A DNA stretch of 40,146 nucleotides. Origin: a virus. The stretch covers positions 1 to 40,146 of IMG/VR virus record IMGVR_UViG_3300027733_000097; one strand, given 5' to 3'. Shown piece by piece: positions 7,146 to 18,294 of the stretch. How positions within the stretch are numbered: the first letter of the stretch is position 1; the number at the start of each line of letters is the position of its first letter. The notes beneath the pieces were generated by a model. The model worked only from the letters and a program-made list of their open reading frames with translations, was not told where the DNA came from and did not search any database. A program made the translations under genes and the position numbers.

Positions 7146-7522
7146 TTGATTTATCGTTATTGCAAATAATCCGAGATAGAATCGATCAAGAATTTGATGG
7201 CTTCTATATTGGATTACAGCATGATTCTGAAAAAATCACATTGCCTGCAATATTTCTTGATGTTACATCTGAAGCGGTAGTAGGTGGGCCATTGTACAAG
7301 GGAAATTTGCTTGTCCATGTTTTAACCCAGGCGGACGATCAAACTCTTCAAGAGCATTCAGAAATTGTTTTAGGAATTAACAATTTTATCAAAAACTTAA
7401 CCATACTATCTGGAGATATCCAGATATTTGGAATAGTTCCAATTCAAACAAACACATCTAGAGGAGAACGACATTTTCAAACTTCATTGACTTTTGTCAT
7501 TGGGTTTGGATCTGAATGTTAA
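7142..7522 (+). CDS. tail terminator / tail completion candidate
   Basis: A 126-residue protein starting with GTG that overlaps the previous stop (GTGA), a sign of translational coupling. It has an N-terminal helix (LSLLQIIRDRIDQEFD), a beta segment (ITLPAIFLDVTSEAV), a strand 'YKGNLLVHVLTQADD', a helix (EHSEIVLGINNFIKN) and a C-terminal beta pair (RHFQTSLTFVIGFG). That helix-strand order is typical of gpU-like tail terminators, which cap the tail tube and join it to the head. Call based on gene order and fold pattern. Confidence 0.5.
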   Translation: MIDLSLLQIIRDRIDQEFDGFYIGLQHDSEKITLPAIFLDVTSEAVVGGPLYKGNLLVHVLTQADDQTLQEHSEIVLGINNFIKNLTILSGDIQIFGIVPIQTNTSRGERHFQTSLTFVIGFGSEC

Positions 7523-7526
7523 AAAT

Positions 7527-7838
7527 ATGGGAGCTGTACCATTTGGTGTTAACAATTATTTTAGCGGGACTGCGCCAAGTGCTGGCTGCGTCCAGGAATC
7601 TTCACTTGAATTAGCCTGTGAAGTGGCAACTATCAAAGGCCCTAATGGGCAAACAAGGCAAGCGCAGGCAAAACCGCTTGTTACCGGAACGGTGACAATC
7701 AAAAGCAAGGGTTCTGCTGTTTTGGCTTACATTGGTTCAAATCAAGACATGTCTGCAATGACCATAACAAGCACAAAATACACAGAGTCAAACAATGATT
7801 TCCCGACATCAGAAGTAACTTCAACTTTCTATAATTAA
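7527..7838 (+). CDS. tail tube candidate, copy A
   Basis: A 103-residue beta-rich protein. The start at ATG 7527 is preferred over a TTG at 7494 inside the previous gene. The second half reads VTGTVTIKSKGSAVL and then MTITSTKYTESNNDFPTSEV. The same ending, ITSxKYxESNxDFxT, occurs in the next gene, so the two are paralogues. In this place (after the terminator, before the tail chaperones) one expects the major tail tube protein. Tube subunits are small beta-barrels, but these two are shorter than most known ones. Which, if either, forms the tube is not clear. Confidence 0.5.
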   Translation: MGAVPFGVNNYFSGTAPSAGCVQESSLELACEVATIKGPNGQTRQAQAKPLVTGTVTIKSKGSAVLAYIGSNQDMSAMTITSTKYTESNNDFPTSEVTSTFYN

Positions 7839-7839
7839 T

Positions 7840-8148
7840 ATGCCATTTGGAATTCAAACTCTAAGCGGAACTTATATTGAATCCGTTGATGTAGAAAGAA
7901 AAGCGGAAACAAAAGTACTTCTTGATTCCGGCGGAAATTATGCTGGTGGTCACGTTGTCGATGACTCTTACACGTTTACTGTAAAGGGAAAAGGCAACGC
8001 ACCTGTAGGAATTGCTGAGGCCGGCGGTGATCCAAATCCGGTTACCGGAACTGTAATTATTACAAGCGTAAAATATATTGAAAGCAACGAAGATTTTCAG
8101 ACGTTTGAATATTCTGGAGTAGCATATCCATACGCAAGCGGCTGTTAA
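7840..8148 (+). CDS. tail tube candidate, copy B (paralogue of 7527-7838)
   Basis: A 102-residue beta-rich protein starting two bases after the stop of its paralogue. It has VERKAETKVLLDSGGNY, then DSYTFTVKGKGNAP, then VTGTVIITSVKYIESNEDF. The N-terminal part, with 'IESVDVERKAETKVLLD' and a tube-like 'YTFTVKGKG' strand, looks more like the core of a tube or spike barrel. The C-terminal 25 residues match copy A most closely. The pair probably arose by tandem duplication and divergence. Function inferred from position. Confidence 0.5.
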   Translation: MPFGIQTLSGTYIESVDVERKAETKVLLDSGGNYAGGHVVDDSYTFTVKGKGNAPVGIAEAGGDPNPVTGTVIITSVKYIESNEDFQTFEYSGVAYPYASGC

Positions 8149-8166: not shown

Positions 8167-8610
8167 ATGAAAATAGGCCAGACAGTTGAATGGTTAAAAG
8201 ATAATTTGTCTCCTTTGAAATCACCGCACACCGACCTTGTTATTGCATGGTTGACGTGCGGTGGTACTCTTTTAAAGGACAATTCGTACATTGACACAAT
8301 TGAGCAAACTCAAAACGGACCAAAGCGCACCGTCACTTGGTGTATTGATGGAGACGTTAAGGCTTTATTTGGCGATAACGAAATGGATTTTCGAGAATTT
8401 AAATCAAAATGGAATGACGCTGAGTGGTGCAAGAAAAACAACGACCATCCAATTGCGCATCATAGATTAAGCCGTGATAACACTGTTCAAATTCGCGATT
8501 GGCTAAAACAACAAAAGCCTGCCGCTTTAATTAGAAGAGGAAACCGCACTGCAATTATTCCTGCGGATTGCCCAGAAGCTCAGAAAAATAAGATTTTAGC
8601 AAACTTGTAA
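8167..8610 (+). CDS. hypothetical tail-region protein
   Basis: A 147-residue protein between the tube candidates and the chaperone genes. It has a hydrophobic N-terminal helix (PHTDLVIAWLTCGGTLLKD), a central part (RTVTWCIDGDVKALFGD), a charged segment (EFKSKWNDAEWCKKNN) and a basic end (PAALIRRGNRTAIIPADC). No signal peptide or membrane segment is convincing. No family recognised. It starts with TTTAGATTATGA, the same context as the glycosyltransferase gene at 25893. Confidence 0.55.
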   Translation: MKIGQTVEWLKDNLSPLKSPHTDLVIAWLTCGGTLLKDNSYIDTIEQTQNGPKRTVTWCIDGDVKALFGDNEMDFREFKSKWNDAEWCKKNNDHPIAHHRLSRDNTVQIRDWLKQQKPAALIRRGNRTAIIPADCPEAQKNKILANL

Positions 8611-8611
8611 T

Positions 8612-9001
8612 ATGGAAGATTATTTAGATGAACCAAAATTAATTGGAGGCGTCATGTTTCGAGCGTTTACAGCCGGAACTCGAAAGGCCTGTTTTCAAAT
8701 GAAGCTTTCAATTTTTACTGGCGTCAAAGATGACAATACAGTTTTAAATGAGGAAGAACTTGAAAATCAAGTAATTGCTTTTGCTTGGCTTCAATCTGCT
8801 CCGTTTCAAGATGTAAAAAAGGCATTAGCAACAAACACATGGAAGAATGCAGTGCTTGATTTTTCATTTAGCTTTCCAATCAGCTTAATCCCTCAGTTGA
8901 TGCTTGAGGTGAGCCGGATCCAGAAAGCAATTGAAGCGGTAGCTGTAGAGGTTGTTCCAAAGCCTAACGAAAAACCTGAAGAAAATGTGCCCCCAAACTA
9001 G
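8612..9001 (+). CDS. tail assembly chaperone, short form (gpG-like)
   Basis: A 129-residue, mostly helical protein just upstream of the tape measure region, the place of lambda gene G. It has AGTRKACFQMKLSIF, LENQVIAFAWLQSAPFQDVKKA and a hydrophobic stretch SFSFPISLIPQLMLEV; the end is proline-rich (PKPNEKPEENVPPN). Chaperones of this type coat the tape measure protein during tail assembly and are made in a short and a frameshifted long form. The last sense codons are CCC CCA AAC before TAG, which contain a slippery heptamer (see 8992-9041). The gene order and frameshift signal give this call most of its weight. Confidence 0.75.
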   Translation: MEDYLDEPKLIGGVMFRAFTAGTRKACFQMKLSIFTGVKDDNTVLNEEELENQVIAFAWLQSAPFQDVKKALATNTWKNAVLDFSFSFPISLIPQLMLEVSRIQKAIEAVAVEVVPKPNEKPEENVPPN

Positions 9002-9240
9002 TTGCGCCAGGTCAAACGGCACAATTTGTGTTTGGCCTGGCAAAAGAAACTGGTTGGTCTGAAGAGTACATTTTATGGGAACTTCCGTTTGTTCGAGCTA
9101 TGGAATATTACCATGCGGCATTAATTTCCGCAGGAAAATGGACAATTAAATACAAATCAGAATCAGAGAAAAAAGCAGATTTGGATAATTTACTTTCTGA
9201 AATTAGCCAAACGCCTTTTGACGATGAAGACGATTACTAG
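8612..9240 (+). CDS. tail assembly chaperone, frameshifted long form (gpGT-like)
   Basis: Predicted 209-residue fusion made by a -1 slip at 8992-8998. The first 129 residues are the short chaperone. Reading then continues CTA GTT GCG CCA from 8998 (LVAPGQTAQFVFGLAKE) to the TAG at 9238-9240. In lambda the equivalent G-T fusion uses the T part to recruit the tube protein while G binds the tape measure protein. The ratio of short to long form matters for assembly. The fusion is an inference from sequence; the slip rate is unknown. Segment coordinates would be 8612-8998 joined to 8998-9240. Confidence 0.75.
8992..9041 (+). promoter_or_regulatory. -1 programmed ribosomal frameshift signal
   Basis: The heptamer CCCAAAC lies at 8992-8998 in the X XXY YYZ phase (C CCA AAC), immediately before the TAG stop at 8999. 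After a 7-nt spacer a 12-bp stem can form between 9006-9017 (GCCAGGTCAAAC) and 9030-9041 (GTTTGGCCTGGC), with a single G-U pair and a 12-nt loop. A -1 shift enters a frame that is open to 9240. Heptamer, spacer and stem are the three parts of a classical signal. Confidence 0.82.
9028..9240 (+). CDS. T-like extension of the tail chaperone
   Basis: This frame encodes the C-terminal domain of the long chaperone (GLAKETGWSEEYILWELPF, VRAMEYYHAALISAGKW). The GW.E.yiLwe(l/i)pf..a..y.haal pattern is common in the second half of split tail chaperones, where it follows the frameshift. The GTG at 9028 could in theory start a 70-residue protein alone, but it lies within the right half of the upstream stem region and has no ribosome-binding site. 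The frame is open upstream to the slip site, so expression by frameshifting is the better explanation. Confidence 0.7.
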   Translation: MFGLAKETGWSEEYILWELPFVRAMEYYHAALISAGKWTIKYKSESEKKADLDNLLSEISQTPFDDEDDY

Positions 9241-10036
9241 AAGCGTAAGAACAGTCTCAGTTGCATCTTCCGGCTTTACTCCGCTTAGTTCATCTAGTGG
9301 AAAAAGTATGGACGCAACAAACGTCCGTCTTCAAAAGGAATTTGAAGACTCGCTAAAGCGTTTTTACAGCAACCTTGCCACCGCGTTAAAGGTCACAAAG
9401 CGAAAACTTAAAGACGAAGCAAAAACCCAATACAAGGGAGTTGCTAGAAATATTTTGGCGGTTACTCCTCCGATGAGATCTGATTTTGTTCAATGGGGTA
9501 AAACAAACAAAGGATCGGATCGTGTAGATTTTGCGACTGGTCGCCAGCGAGGAAGAAATAAAATTCTTTCAAACATGGCTGGAGTTTTAAAAGTGATTCG
9601 CGCAAACACTCTTGAATACAAAAAAGAACGCAGGGAACCACTGTCCTACTATCTTGCTGTTCGGCAAGAAAATCGCAGGCCTAAAAAACATCCAGAAAAA
9701 GCAAGAGTGGCTGTTTCAAGAAACCAGTGGAACATGATTAAAAAATTCCTGTTTGAAAGACAGGGATGGATTTTGTCTGGCTGGAAAGCAATGACCAAGC
9801 AGTTTAGTGTTGGGCTAAAAGATTGGGTTGAACGCAAAAATTTAACATCTACATGCAAAGTTATTGACACAGAAACTATGTACGGGTTTGAGGCAATAAA
9901 TGGGTCTAAAGCCGTAATGGACGCATCCATTCAAGCCAGAATTCGGTTTGGCCTTGATAAACAAAGCAAAGCAATGGAAAACTCTTTTAAAAATCGGACC
10001 GAGCGATTAATGAGAGAGGGAAAACTGACGTTATGA
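9224..10036 (+). CDS. basic tail-region protein, function unknown
   Basis: A 270-residue, strongly basic protein. I chose ATG 9224, which overlaps the chaperone extension by 17 nt; TTG 9218 or ATG 9308 are alternatives. Features: a serine-rich start, a helical part (LQKEFEDSLKRFYSNLATAL), a segment VARNILAVTPPM reminiscent of HK97-gp10/gpZ-like tail proteins, and a C-terminal helical region with SGWKAMTKQFSVGLKDWVERKN. Such minor tail proteins often appear before the terminator, so its place directly before the tape measure gene is unusual. The gpZ/gp10 link is tentative. The next gene overlaps its stop as ATGA. Confidence 0.5.
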   Translation: MKTITRSVRTVSVASSGFTPLSSSSGKSMDATNVRLQKEFEDSLKRFYSNLATALKVTKRKLKDEAKTQYKGVARNILAVTPPMRSDFVQWGKTNKGSDRVDFATGRQRGRNKILSNMAGVLKVIRANTLEYKKERREPLSYYLAVRQENRRPKKHPEKARVAVSRNQWNMIKKFLFERQGWILSGWKAMTKQFSVGLKDWVERKNLTSTCKVIDTETMYGFEAINGSKAVMDASIQARIRFGLDKQSKAMENSFKNRTERLMREGKLTL

Positions 10037-14818: not shown

Positions 14819-15151
14819 ATGGCCGCTGAAATTTACAATTTTGCAATCGAAGAAGGAGCAGATATTGCCTACGGAATTCGTCTAAAAGAAAATAAAATTC
14901 CTCAGAACTTAAGCGAGTGGACGTTTAAGGCTCAACTTCGAGCATTGAATGACACCGTAATTTTTGACTTTGACGTTGAAGTAAGCCAGAATGATCCGTA
15001 TGTGTTGCGGATCGGCAAAAGCGGATCAGTTACTGATGCGTTAATTGCTGGCGTTGCAAAGCATGATTTGCTAGGAATAGCACCAGACGGCAGGCGATTT
15101 CGTCTGCTTGAAGGACAAGTTACAATTTCATCTTCCGTTACTGAGCTATGA
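14819..15151 (+). CDS. small fibre-associated protein, BppU-N-like
   Basis: A 110-residue protein with the pattern 'f.ieeGad..y.irlken..p.[12 protein letters not shown]', then [20 protein letters not shown] and [19 protein letters not shown]. This all-beta layout is common in small phage proteins encoded directly upstream of collagen-like or fibre genes, and resembles the immunoglobulin-like N-terminal domain of BppU baseplate proteins. It may link fibre and baseplate. The start context AAACAATTTTATG is shared with the gene at 40061. Its stop overlaps the next start (ATGA). Confidence 0.55.
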
Positions 15152-18100
15152 GCGATTGCGGCTGCGACAGTGATATTATTTCAATTGAGATCCTGTCAGG
15201 GGCACCTGGAGCATATGGTGGCCCTGCCGGCCCTATGGGTCCCGCAGGCGCGACTGGCGCAACCGGCGCAGGCGCAACCGGCGCAACCGGAACAAAAGGC
15301 GCAACCGGGTCAACGGGCGCAACTGGACCCATTGGCGCAACTGGATCAGGCGCAACGGGAGCCACCGGCATTGGATCGAGCGGTGCTACCGGTGCCACAG
15401 GACCTGCAGGCGCAACTGGATCCGGCGCGACTGGCGCAACAGGCCAAAAAGGTGATATTGGAATTAGCGGCGAAGACGGCGCAACAGGTCCAACAGGCCC
15501 CTCGGGCGCAACTGGGCCTGTTGGAGCAACTGGGGTAGGAGCAACCGGATTACAAGGTTTAACCGGCGCAACAGGACCTAGCGGAGCCCAAGGCGTCAAA
15601 GGAAACAGTGGCGATACTGGGTTGACTGGATCAACTGGCCCTACTGGCATTCAAGGCTCGACTGGCCCATCTGGGCTGCAAGGCTCGACTGGCGCAACTG
15701 GCATCGGTGCTACTGGCGCAACCGGACCAAAAGGAGACACGGGTTTTGAAGGCCCATCTGGGCCACAAGGCCTGATCGGCCCTACTGGATCTACTGGGGT
15801 TTCTGGCGCGACTGGCCCGTCTGGATTTGGCGCAACAGGAGCAACTGGTTTGCAAGGCTCGACTGGTTTAGTTGGGGCAACAGGACCTGGGAACGGTCCT
15901 TCGGGACCTACTGGTCCAACTGGAGCAACTGGAGCAACTGGACCGCAGGGCATTCAAGGCATTCAAGGAATAATTGGAATTTCTGGCGCAACCGGCTCTA
16001 CAGGAGTTTCAGGCGCAACTGGTCCAACGGGATTAACTGGAGCGACTGGACTTGGCGCAACTGGAGCAAGTGGCGCAACCGGTGCAACCGGACCTTCCGG
16101 CGCCGCTGGCTCGACTGGTGCCAGCGGACCGTCTGGGTTAATTGGACCAACCGGATTGACTGGTCCATCTGGCGCGACAGGACCTTCAGGTGCGCAAGGT
16201 GCTAGTGGGCCTTCTGGCTCGACTGGGTCTAGCGGTATTCAAGGCTCAACTGGTCAAAGTGGTTCATCTGGCGCAACGGGACCGCGAGGCTCTACCGGCG
16301 TTTCTGGCGCGACTGGACCGTCTGGACTTGGCGCAACAGGAGCGACTGGTTTGCAAGGCTCGACTGGTTTAGTTGGGGCAACAGGACCTGGGAATGGCCC
16401 CACAGGCCCCACAGGCGCGACTGGCGCAAATGGACCTACAGGCGCAACCGGATCAACGGGCGCAACCGGTGCAACGGGATTTGGCGCAACTGGCGCAACT
16501 GGCGCAACTGGACCTGCAGGCGCAACCGGATCTGGAGCAACAGGCGCAACCGGATTTGGCGCGACCGGTGCAACGGGACCCATAGGGTTAACTGGACCTG
16601 CAGGAGGCCCGACTGGAGCAACAGGCGCAACTGGGTCTTCTGGAATAAATGGAATTTCCGGCGCAACTGGCGCAACCGGTCCAGCAGGTGCGACCGGCAG
16701 CGGCGCAACCGGTGCAAGTGGAGTTACTGGCGCAACTGGACCCGCTGGTGGTCCTACCGGAGCAACAGGCGCAACGGGGCCTTCTGGAATAAATGGAATT
16801 TCCGGCGCAACTGGCCCTGCAGGTGCTACCGGACCAGCAGGTGCAACCGGATCTGGAGCAACAGGCGCAACGGGGCCAATTGGCGCAACTGGATCAGGCG
16901 CAACGGGAGCTACTGGAATAGTTAGTTTAACTCAAGGCGCGTCCATAAAAACTAGTTTTATTGGAAATGGCGCTGATTTTGTATTTCAAGCTGTTCAAGG
17001 CGCATATACTTCAAATGCAGATGGTTATCTTGTAACAGTCGATGGTGTTGTGCAATCTTCACCAGCAGATTACAGTGTTGGAACTCCAGTAAATGGTCAA
17101 GTTAATATTACATTTACAACAATTCCAGCCAATCAATCAATTATTGATGTTCGGACTATCGTTGGGCAACAAGGAGAAACCGGTGCAACGGGACCAAGTG
17201 GGTTAGCAGGACCTGCAGGCGGGCCATCTGGCGCGACAGGTGCAACTGGTGCAACGGGATTTGGCGCAACTGGCGCGACTGGCGCAGCGGGTCCAAGTGG
17301 CGCGACGGGACCTACCGGAGCAATCGGCCTTGCTGGCGCAACTGGATTTGGCGCGACCGGTGCAACTGGACCAAGAGGAGCCACCGGAAGCGCCAACCAG
17401 GCACTGTCTGTTAGCCAGACGTTTTACGGCACTGGAATTACAACTGCATTTGGTCCCATTACAATGGGGACAGTTGCAAGCCGAGCTGGATATTTTGTAA
17501 CTGTTGATGGAGTAATGCAGCATCCTTTAGATACAGTTTACTCAACGCCATATGTTACTAACCCGCAAACTTTAGTAAATGAAATTTATGTAATTTTTGT
17601 TGAACCTCCGCCGCTGGGTATGGAGATTATAGTGCGAGTTTTAATGGGTGATGCTGGGGCTACAGGATCCATTGGACCAACTGGAATACAAGGCGCAACG
17701 GGGCCAAGTGGACTTCAAGGAGCTACAGGACCAATCGGAATTAGTGGAATAACCGGTGCAACTGGCGTTAAAGGATCCACTGGTTCAACCGGCCCGAGTG
17801 GCACTCAGGGAGACACAGGGGCAACAGGATCAACTGGACCCGCTGGATCAATAGCAAGTTTTTCGTTATTAAAAGAAAAGGTCACACAAGACAACACGGC
17901 AGCAAATGGAGTTATTGATTTTAACATTTCAGCTCAACAGATAATATACAAAACTTCACCTGCCGCCGGAAATTTTTCAATTAATCTAATAGATCAAAAT
18001 AACACTCCATTAGTGTTAAATAACGGAGATTGCTTTACGATTACACTGTTAAACACAAACGGAAATGATCCGTATTTATGCACAAAAATTTCAGCGTTAA

Positions 18101-18294
18101 ATAACAACATAAATGAAATTCCTGTTAAATATTTAACAGGAAGCAGCACTACGCAATCTATCACAAATGGAGTTGAAGCTTGGACTTTTACAATTAATTA
18201 TCAAGAAGTTAATGCTGGAAAGCCAAGCAACATTTTAGCACGAGACTGGCTTTATAATTATTTTGTTTTTGGATCAGTAAGCAGATTCAAATAA
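15148..18294 (+). CDS. collagen-like tail fibre protein
   Basis: A 1048-residue protein made mainly of Gly-X-Y triplets, dominated by GAT and GPx ([10 protein letters not shown] patterns), which should trimerise into a collagen-like rod. It begins with a short non-collagen head with CGCDSD. Two beta-rich modules interrupt the rod, at about residues 590-672 ([19 protein letters not shown]) and 750-834 ([19 protein letters not shown]). A non-collagen C-terminal domain starts near residue 900 and ends [13 protein letters not shown]; it is the likely trimerisation or receptor-binding end. The collagen DNA contains long direct repeats. The start overlaps the previous stop (ATGA). Role as an adhesin is inferred from position. 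Confidence 0.82.
15801..15894 (+). repeat. 94-bp direct repeat in collagen gene, copy 1
   Basis: This segment is nearly identical to 16302-16395, 501 bp downstream (167 codons, so in frame). It encodes a fixed run of triplets with the unusual [16 protein letters not shown]. Few base differences suggest recent duplication or gene conversion. Confidence 0.8.
16302..16395 (+). repeat. 94-bp direct repeat in collagen gene, copy 2
   Basis: Second copy of the repeat at 15801-15894. Differences are few and mainly silent (for example CCCGTCTGG against CCGTCTGG context and AACGG against AATGG). Recombination between the copies would delete or add 167 codons of the rod and so change fibre length. Confidence 0.8.

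Follow-up and report, generated by a model that had tools for sequence, protein, structure and literature searches.

Frameshifting in the pair of tail-assembly chaperone genes known in phage lambda as G and T is the rule in tailed phages, and the lambda G and GT products are made at a ratio of about 30:1 (PMC5009743). In Escherichia coli, the site A_AAA_AAG is much shiftier than A_AAA_AAC, and AAC-ending sites represent the mammalian type; the haloarchaeal tailed viruses HCTV-1, -2, and -5 employ GGGAAAC, AAAAAAC, and GGGAAAG for g-t expression (PMC5009743). Likewise, a -1 frameshift is described in the pre-tape-measure chaperones of Caulobacter phages phiCbK (AAAAAAC) and Colossus (GGGAAAC) (PMC3556154), and the gp18/gp19 pair of Burkholderia phage KL1 carries GGGAAAC followed immediately by TGA (PMC3483164). 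A limited literature search found no paper on chaperone frameshifting in Verrucomicrobiota-linked viruses. Here, we analyze a 40,146-nt stretch of viral DNA (IMG/VR record IMGVR_UViG_3300027733_000097; hereafter, the window) and propose that it very probably encodes a lambda G/GT-type programmed -1 ribosomal frameshift that yields a tail-assembly chaperone in a short and an extended form.

Anatomy and gene neighborhood of the G/T junction

The features of the locus are listed in Table 1. An initial annotation of the window had described an in-phase CCCAAAC heptamer with TAG directly behind it, a 12-bp stem with one G-U pair and a 12-nt loop beginning 7 nt past the heptamer, and a -1 frame that stays open to 9240. 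Each of these elements is exactly as described, with the minor correction that the predicted fold allows two extra pairs within the loop. The last -1-frame stop upstream of the site lies at 8977; from 8980 onward, the frame contains no stop until 9238-9240. As in lambda G/GT, a second open reading frame (ORF) in the -1 frame thus overlaps the end of the first, both here and in the 77 junctions compared below. The layout of an X_XXY_YYZ heptamer, a short spacer, and a downstream structure is that of a canonical bacterial -1 programmed frameshift.

In-phase XXXYYYZ heptamers (Y = A or T) number 51 among the 8,301 codons of the window. Hairpins of at least 12 bp with no more than one G-U pair and a loop of 3-15 nt occur in two places on the plus strand; 10 first-order Markov shuffles yielded none. 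When the -1-frame peptide was recoded synonymously 200 times, none of the versions matched the stability of the stem at the junction (z = -3.05; 0/200), which forms 12 of 12 pairs versus 8.1 expected. The sole other hairpin of this size (15489-15525) falls within a collagen-repeat tail-fiber gene (15148-18294).

Table 1. Features of the G/T locus, in window coordinates.
Feature	Position	Strand	Evidence and remarks
Conserved tail-module gene	8167..8610	+	Synteny anchor directly 5' of G; alignment A2; 147 viral-contig relatives
G-like gene, 129 aa	8612..9001	+	ORF; AlphaFold2 pLDDT 88.7; putative short tail-assembly chaperone from normal translation
Slippery heptamer C_CCA_AAC	8992..8998	+	Phase X_XXY_YYZ of ORF 8612-9001; predicted tandem -1 slip CCA to CCC, AAC to AAA
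T-like domain, -1 frame, 80 codons plus stop	8998..9240	+	Conserved peptide in relatives; pLDDT 87.5; predicted GT fusion of 209 aa
0-frame stop TAG	8999..9001	+	Abuts heptamer; sequence
Putative stimulatory hairpin	9006..9041	+	Stem 9006-9017/9030-9041, 12 bp, one G-U, 12-nt loop, 7-nt spacer; MFE -21.0 kcal/mol
272-aa gene between T domain and tape measure	9218..10036	+	Relatives 3' of T in several loci
Tape measure protein, 526 aa	10033..11613	+	PHROG tape-measure families, best 2.2e-12; top match (7.6e-14) is a PHROG of unknown function

The tape measure gene lies near the G/T pair, with the 272-aa gene intervening. Sequence homology to a known tail-assembly chaperone family, a further mark of lambda G/GT, was not detected: no Pfam or PHROG family was found for the window's G and T proteins, for 39 relatives of G (both libraries), or for 40 relatives of T (PHROG). 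Fold searches likewise returned no named chaperone at E <= 0.001 for either protein. The single G match at that threshold is an uncharacterized Caudovirales protein; several chaperones appear among the weak matches, including N15 GT at E = 0.64. Nor did an annotated phage collection contain a relative by DNA or protein. Because family and fold searches gave no or weak matches, we infer the chaperone role from the proximity of the tape measure gene together with the architecture and the frameshift. Upstream of the anchor gene, two adjacent small genes (7494-7838 and 7840-8148) are apparent paralogues (40% identity over ~50 residues) that are duplicated in several relatives too; they are possible candidates for tail tube or terminator proteins.

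Conservation across related viruses and prophages

Because G and T are too diverged for direct detection, the terminase gene (928-2682; loci L005-L084) and the gene upstream of G (L085-L164) served as routes to relatives, and a T-domain profile run on these loci yielded 75 distinct virus junctions. Together with two prophages (L169 and L170, below), they form the set of 77. G relatives identified by synteny and tblastn share 25-42% identity. One contig, IMGVR_UViG_3300010885_025032 (L002), shows no difference from the window across 10,387 bases and is therefore not independent evidence.

At the same alignment position, 77 of 77 junctions carry a slippery string: GGGAAAC (27), CCCAAAC (21), GGGAAAG (16), AAAAAAC (7), CCCAAAA (3), or GGGGGAA (3). 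The preceding codon is proline in 71/77, and its third base always extends the run (CCC_CCA, CCG_GGA or CCG_GGG, CCA_AAA). A protein tree that excludes the junction residues implies at least 11 changes of the slippery triplet, all of which left it slippery, and at least 14 changes of heptamer class; both counts are approximate because many forks of the tree are unresolved. The triplet changes and the run-extending preceding codon therefore indicate that it is the string, and not the amino acid (Pro, Gly, or Lys), that is maintained. The initial annotation had noted that CCCAAAC differs from lambda GGGAAAG. This is true but unremarkable, since CCCAAAC, GGGAAAC, and AAAAAAC are usual in the family and one clade carries GGGAAAG itself.

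The hairpin is conserved as well. Across 56 ungapped junctions, with the window's 12-bp helix as reference, 82.4% of cells are paired versus 27-47% after displacement of one arm by 1-3 bases, a control that preserves relatedness yet is biased toward a structure drawn from one row. Double-changed cells number 69 versus a shuffled mean of 25.7 (0/500), and the covariation score is 0.347 versus 0.211 (0/500), with the caveat that kinship among sequences can beat shuffles for other reasons. Two lengths of sequence were folded for comparison with synonymous recoding, and z fell below -2 for one or both of them at 59 of the 77 junctions. The signal is weakest at GGGAAAG sites (4/16; mean z about -1.1), which comprise one clade plus L054. 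The latter (L054:9913-10270) is a divergent T-domain relative in which the G stop lies 42 nt later and the hairpin is not above expectation.

A 48-nt folding length had suggested that strong heptamers (GGGAAAG, GGGGGAA) lose the hairpin. We rejected this idea, as longer stretches revealed a different, longer hairpin of 54-58 nt in the same place in the GGGGGAA clade and its neighbors L129 and L131. These two and L132, L133, and L136 form one clade with GGGAAAC and GGGGGAA as sister forms. GGGGGAA is reportedly the site that PRFect identifies in many actinobacteriophages.

The initial annotation had suggested an alignment check, in which relatives retaining both frames but lacking the heptamer or stem would count against its G/GT-type reading. 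The outcome favors that reading: every junction retains a slippery string, and most retain a covarying or stronger-than-expected hairpin. Conservation in dozens of related viruses makes the signal almost certainly real and, on this comparative sequence evidence, the string and hairpin at the G/T junction are not due to chance.

The relatives also point to a host. A terminase scan of bacterial genomes recovered 11 loci, 10 from Verrucomicrobiota (Prosthecobacter, Verrucomicrobium, Verrucomicrobiaceae, Chthoniobacterales, Opitutales, and other Verrucomicrobia) and one from a Bacteroidales metagenome-assembled genome (MAG). The junction is present in two of them: L169 in a Chthoniobacterales MAG (CCCAAAC TCC TAG) and L170 in Verrucomicrobium sp. 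BvORR106 (GGGAAAC TAA). Of 388 Verrucomicrobiota genomes, a T-profile search matched 17, and several of these carry CCCAAAC, GGGAAAC, AAAAAAC, AAAAAAG, or GGGAAAG in phase at or near the junction. Judging from these relatives, the window virus probably infects Verrucomicrobiota.

We considered whether host tRNA-Lys(CUU) forces AAC-ending sites by making AAG poor and AAC preferable. Two hosts of AAC-site prophages (G002 and G003) carry tRNA-Lys(CUU) and (UUU), and Lys(UUU) alone was found in G120 (AAAAAAG). The idea is nonetheless unsupported, for the AAG-site hosts G331, G219, and G128 also match the Lys(CUU) pattern. The queuosine enzyme TGT does not discriminate because the two AAC-site hosts and all 14 controls alike possess it. 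Separately, G002 and G003 contain dense clusters of low-scoring tRNA genes (G002:C117:97762-100454, L204; G003:C90:5401-7633, L216) that look like mobile-element tRNA arrays in two Verrucomicrobiota genomes with related prophages.

Translation of the T domain and the adjacent stop codon

The T domain is conserved as a protein (tblastn up to 54% identity, 1e-25), with the shared peptide L-x-x-P...GW.E..ILWELP..RAL.YYHAALW..GAWTV (alignments A1 and A5). Between the upstream stop and the conserved proline (residue 4), the T frame is devoid of ATG, GTG, and TTG in 64 of 77 junctions, that of the window among them; as in lambda, T mostly lacks a start of its own.

We propose that most ribosomes would translate the G ORF and terminate at TAG to give the 129-aa G protein. 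A minority, stalled by the hairpin 7 nt downstream, would slip back one nucleotide on C_CCA_AAC, with tRNA-Pro re-pairing from CCA to CCC and tRNA-Asn from AAC to AAA. The slipped ribosomes would bypass the stop, open the stem, and continue for 80 codons in the -1 frame, producing a 209-aa GT fusion with the junction peptide ...NVPPN-LVAPG.... If they act as in lambda, the two products may cover the tape measure protein and bring in tail tube subunits, their ratio being determined by how often ribosomes slip.

It is very unlikely that the -1 ORF is instead translated on its own, either from its own start or by coupling at the G stop, with heptamer and stem incidental. A GTG at 9028 does open a 70-aa ORF in the T frame, and the nearby G stop makes re-initiation conceivable. 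This GTG, however, lies within the stem loop and downstream of the conserved Leu-x-x-Pro with which the T domain begins; most junctions lack any such start ahead of the proline; and independent initiation leaves unexplained a slippery string kept through at least 11 triplet changes. Transcriptional slippage on a homopolymer could also extend the protein, and some junctions do contain such runs (the seven AAAAAAC and three with a run of five G). We regard it as highly improbable, since the majority (CCCAAAC, GGGAAAC, CCCAAAA, and GGGAAAG) have no long homopolymer and a hairpin 5-9 nt downstream is the arrangement of ribosomal slippage. Finally, an indel or sequencing error could have split a single G-T gene, and the second contig, being identical over the compared stretch, lends no independent support against error. 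Such a pseudogene or mis-assembly is refuted by recurrence to the point of being exceedingly improbable: the same frame relation holds in 77/77 junctions from many metagenomes, as well as in the prophages of a Verrucomicrobium isolate and a Chthoniobacterales MAG.

Within the proposed ribosomal frameshift, the stop codon deserves separate treatment. The initial annotation considered a stop immediately behind the slip site an uncommon arrangement; for this family it is wrong, as the stop abuts the string in 41 of 77 junctions, and several lineages with a stop 3-27 nt later retain the signal. The first -1-frame codon is nearly always leucine (CTN), and its wobble base sets whether a stop forms. 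Given background leucine codon use, an immediate stop would be expected in 7.3 of 33 thinned junctions, versus 22 found. CTA is the first leucine codon in 18 of these 33 against a background of 8% (p = 7e-12), an enrichment that is absent where the following base cannot complete a stop (1/8). Both the immediate-stop excess and the CTA excess, the latter only where a stop can form, thus indicate, at the level of codon choice, that the position of the stop adjacent to the slippery string is under selection.

This selection may equally reflect stimulation of slippage or a clean end to G. A tentative variant, compatible with the programmed frameshift, is that the stop is active: slippage would occur after translocation with TAG in the A site, slow termination would raise the rate, and the hairpin would add to it. 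Immediate stops do exceed what the T peptide needs, an excess explained equally well by selection against junk residues on G, and the lineages with later stops keep the signal nonetheless. By the same token, we suggest as a possible though doubtful extension that 'eukaryote-like' XXXAAAC sites, weak on E. coli ribosomes, are made efficient by an adjacent stop plus hairpin. If so, the adjacent stop would be a selected stimulator and not merely the end of G.

Comparison with known systems

The kind of mechanism is already known from phage lambda, as is a stop-adjacent GGGAAAC from KL1 (PMC3483164). What is added here is the protein family and its Verrucomicrobiota link: a firmly supported programmed frameshift is placed in a Verrucomicrobiota-linked virus lineage, within a putative chaperone family that is missing from Pfam and PHROGs. 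The alignment also provides an annotation rule for this split gene in metagenomic phages. Moreover, it constitutes a natural experiment in which the changes of heptamer class, the varied hairpin lengths, and the varied stop distances allow what heptamer, spacer, stem, and adjacent stop each contribute to be tested directly.

Likened by slip sites alone, HCTV-1, -2, and -5 share with this family a mixture of AAC- and AAG-ending heptamers but infect archaeal hosts. PhiCbK and Colossus, compared on the same basis, resemble the window in an XXXAAAC chaperone site with a -1 shift and differ in host and protein family. KL1 matches the XXXAAAC site abutting the G stop codon, whereas its host is Burkholderia and the window's G and T have no relative among phage records. 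With lambda (gene order G, T, H), the window shares (i) overlapping frames near the tape measure gene, (ii) a -1 heptamer slip near the end of G, (iii) a startless T, and (iv) a helical G-like protein with a separate T domain. Unlike lambda, it features CCCAAAC rather than GGGAAAG, a strong hairpin, a stop abutting the heptamer, and an extra gene before the tape measure, and homology between the two is undetectable by sequence.
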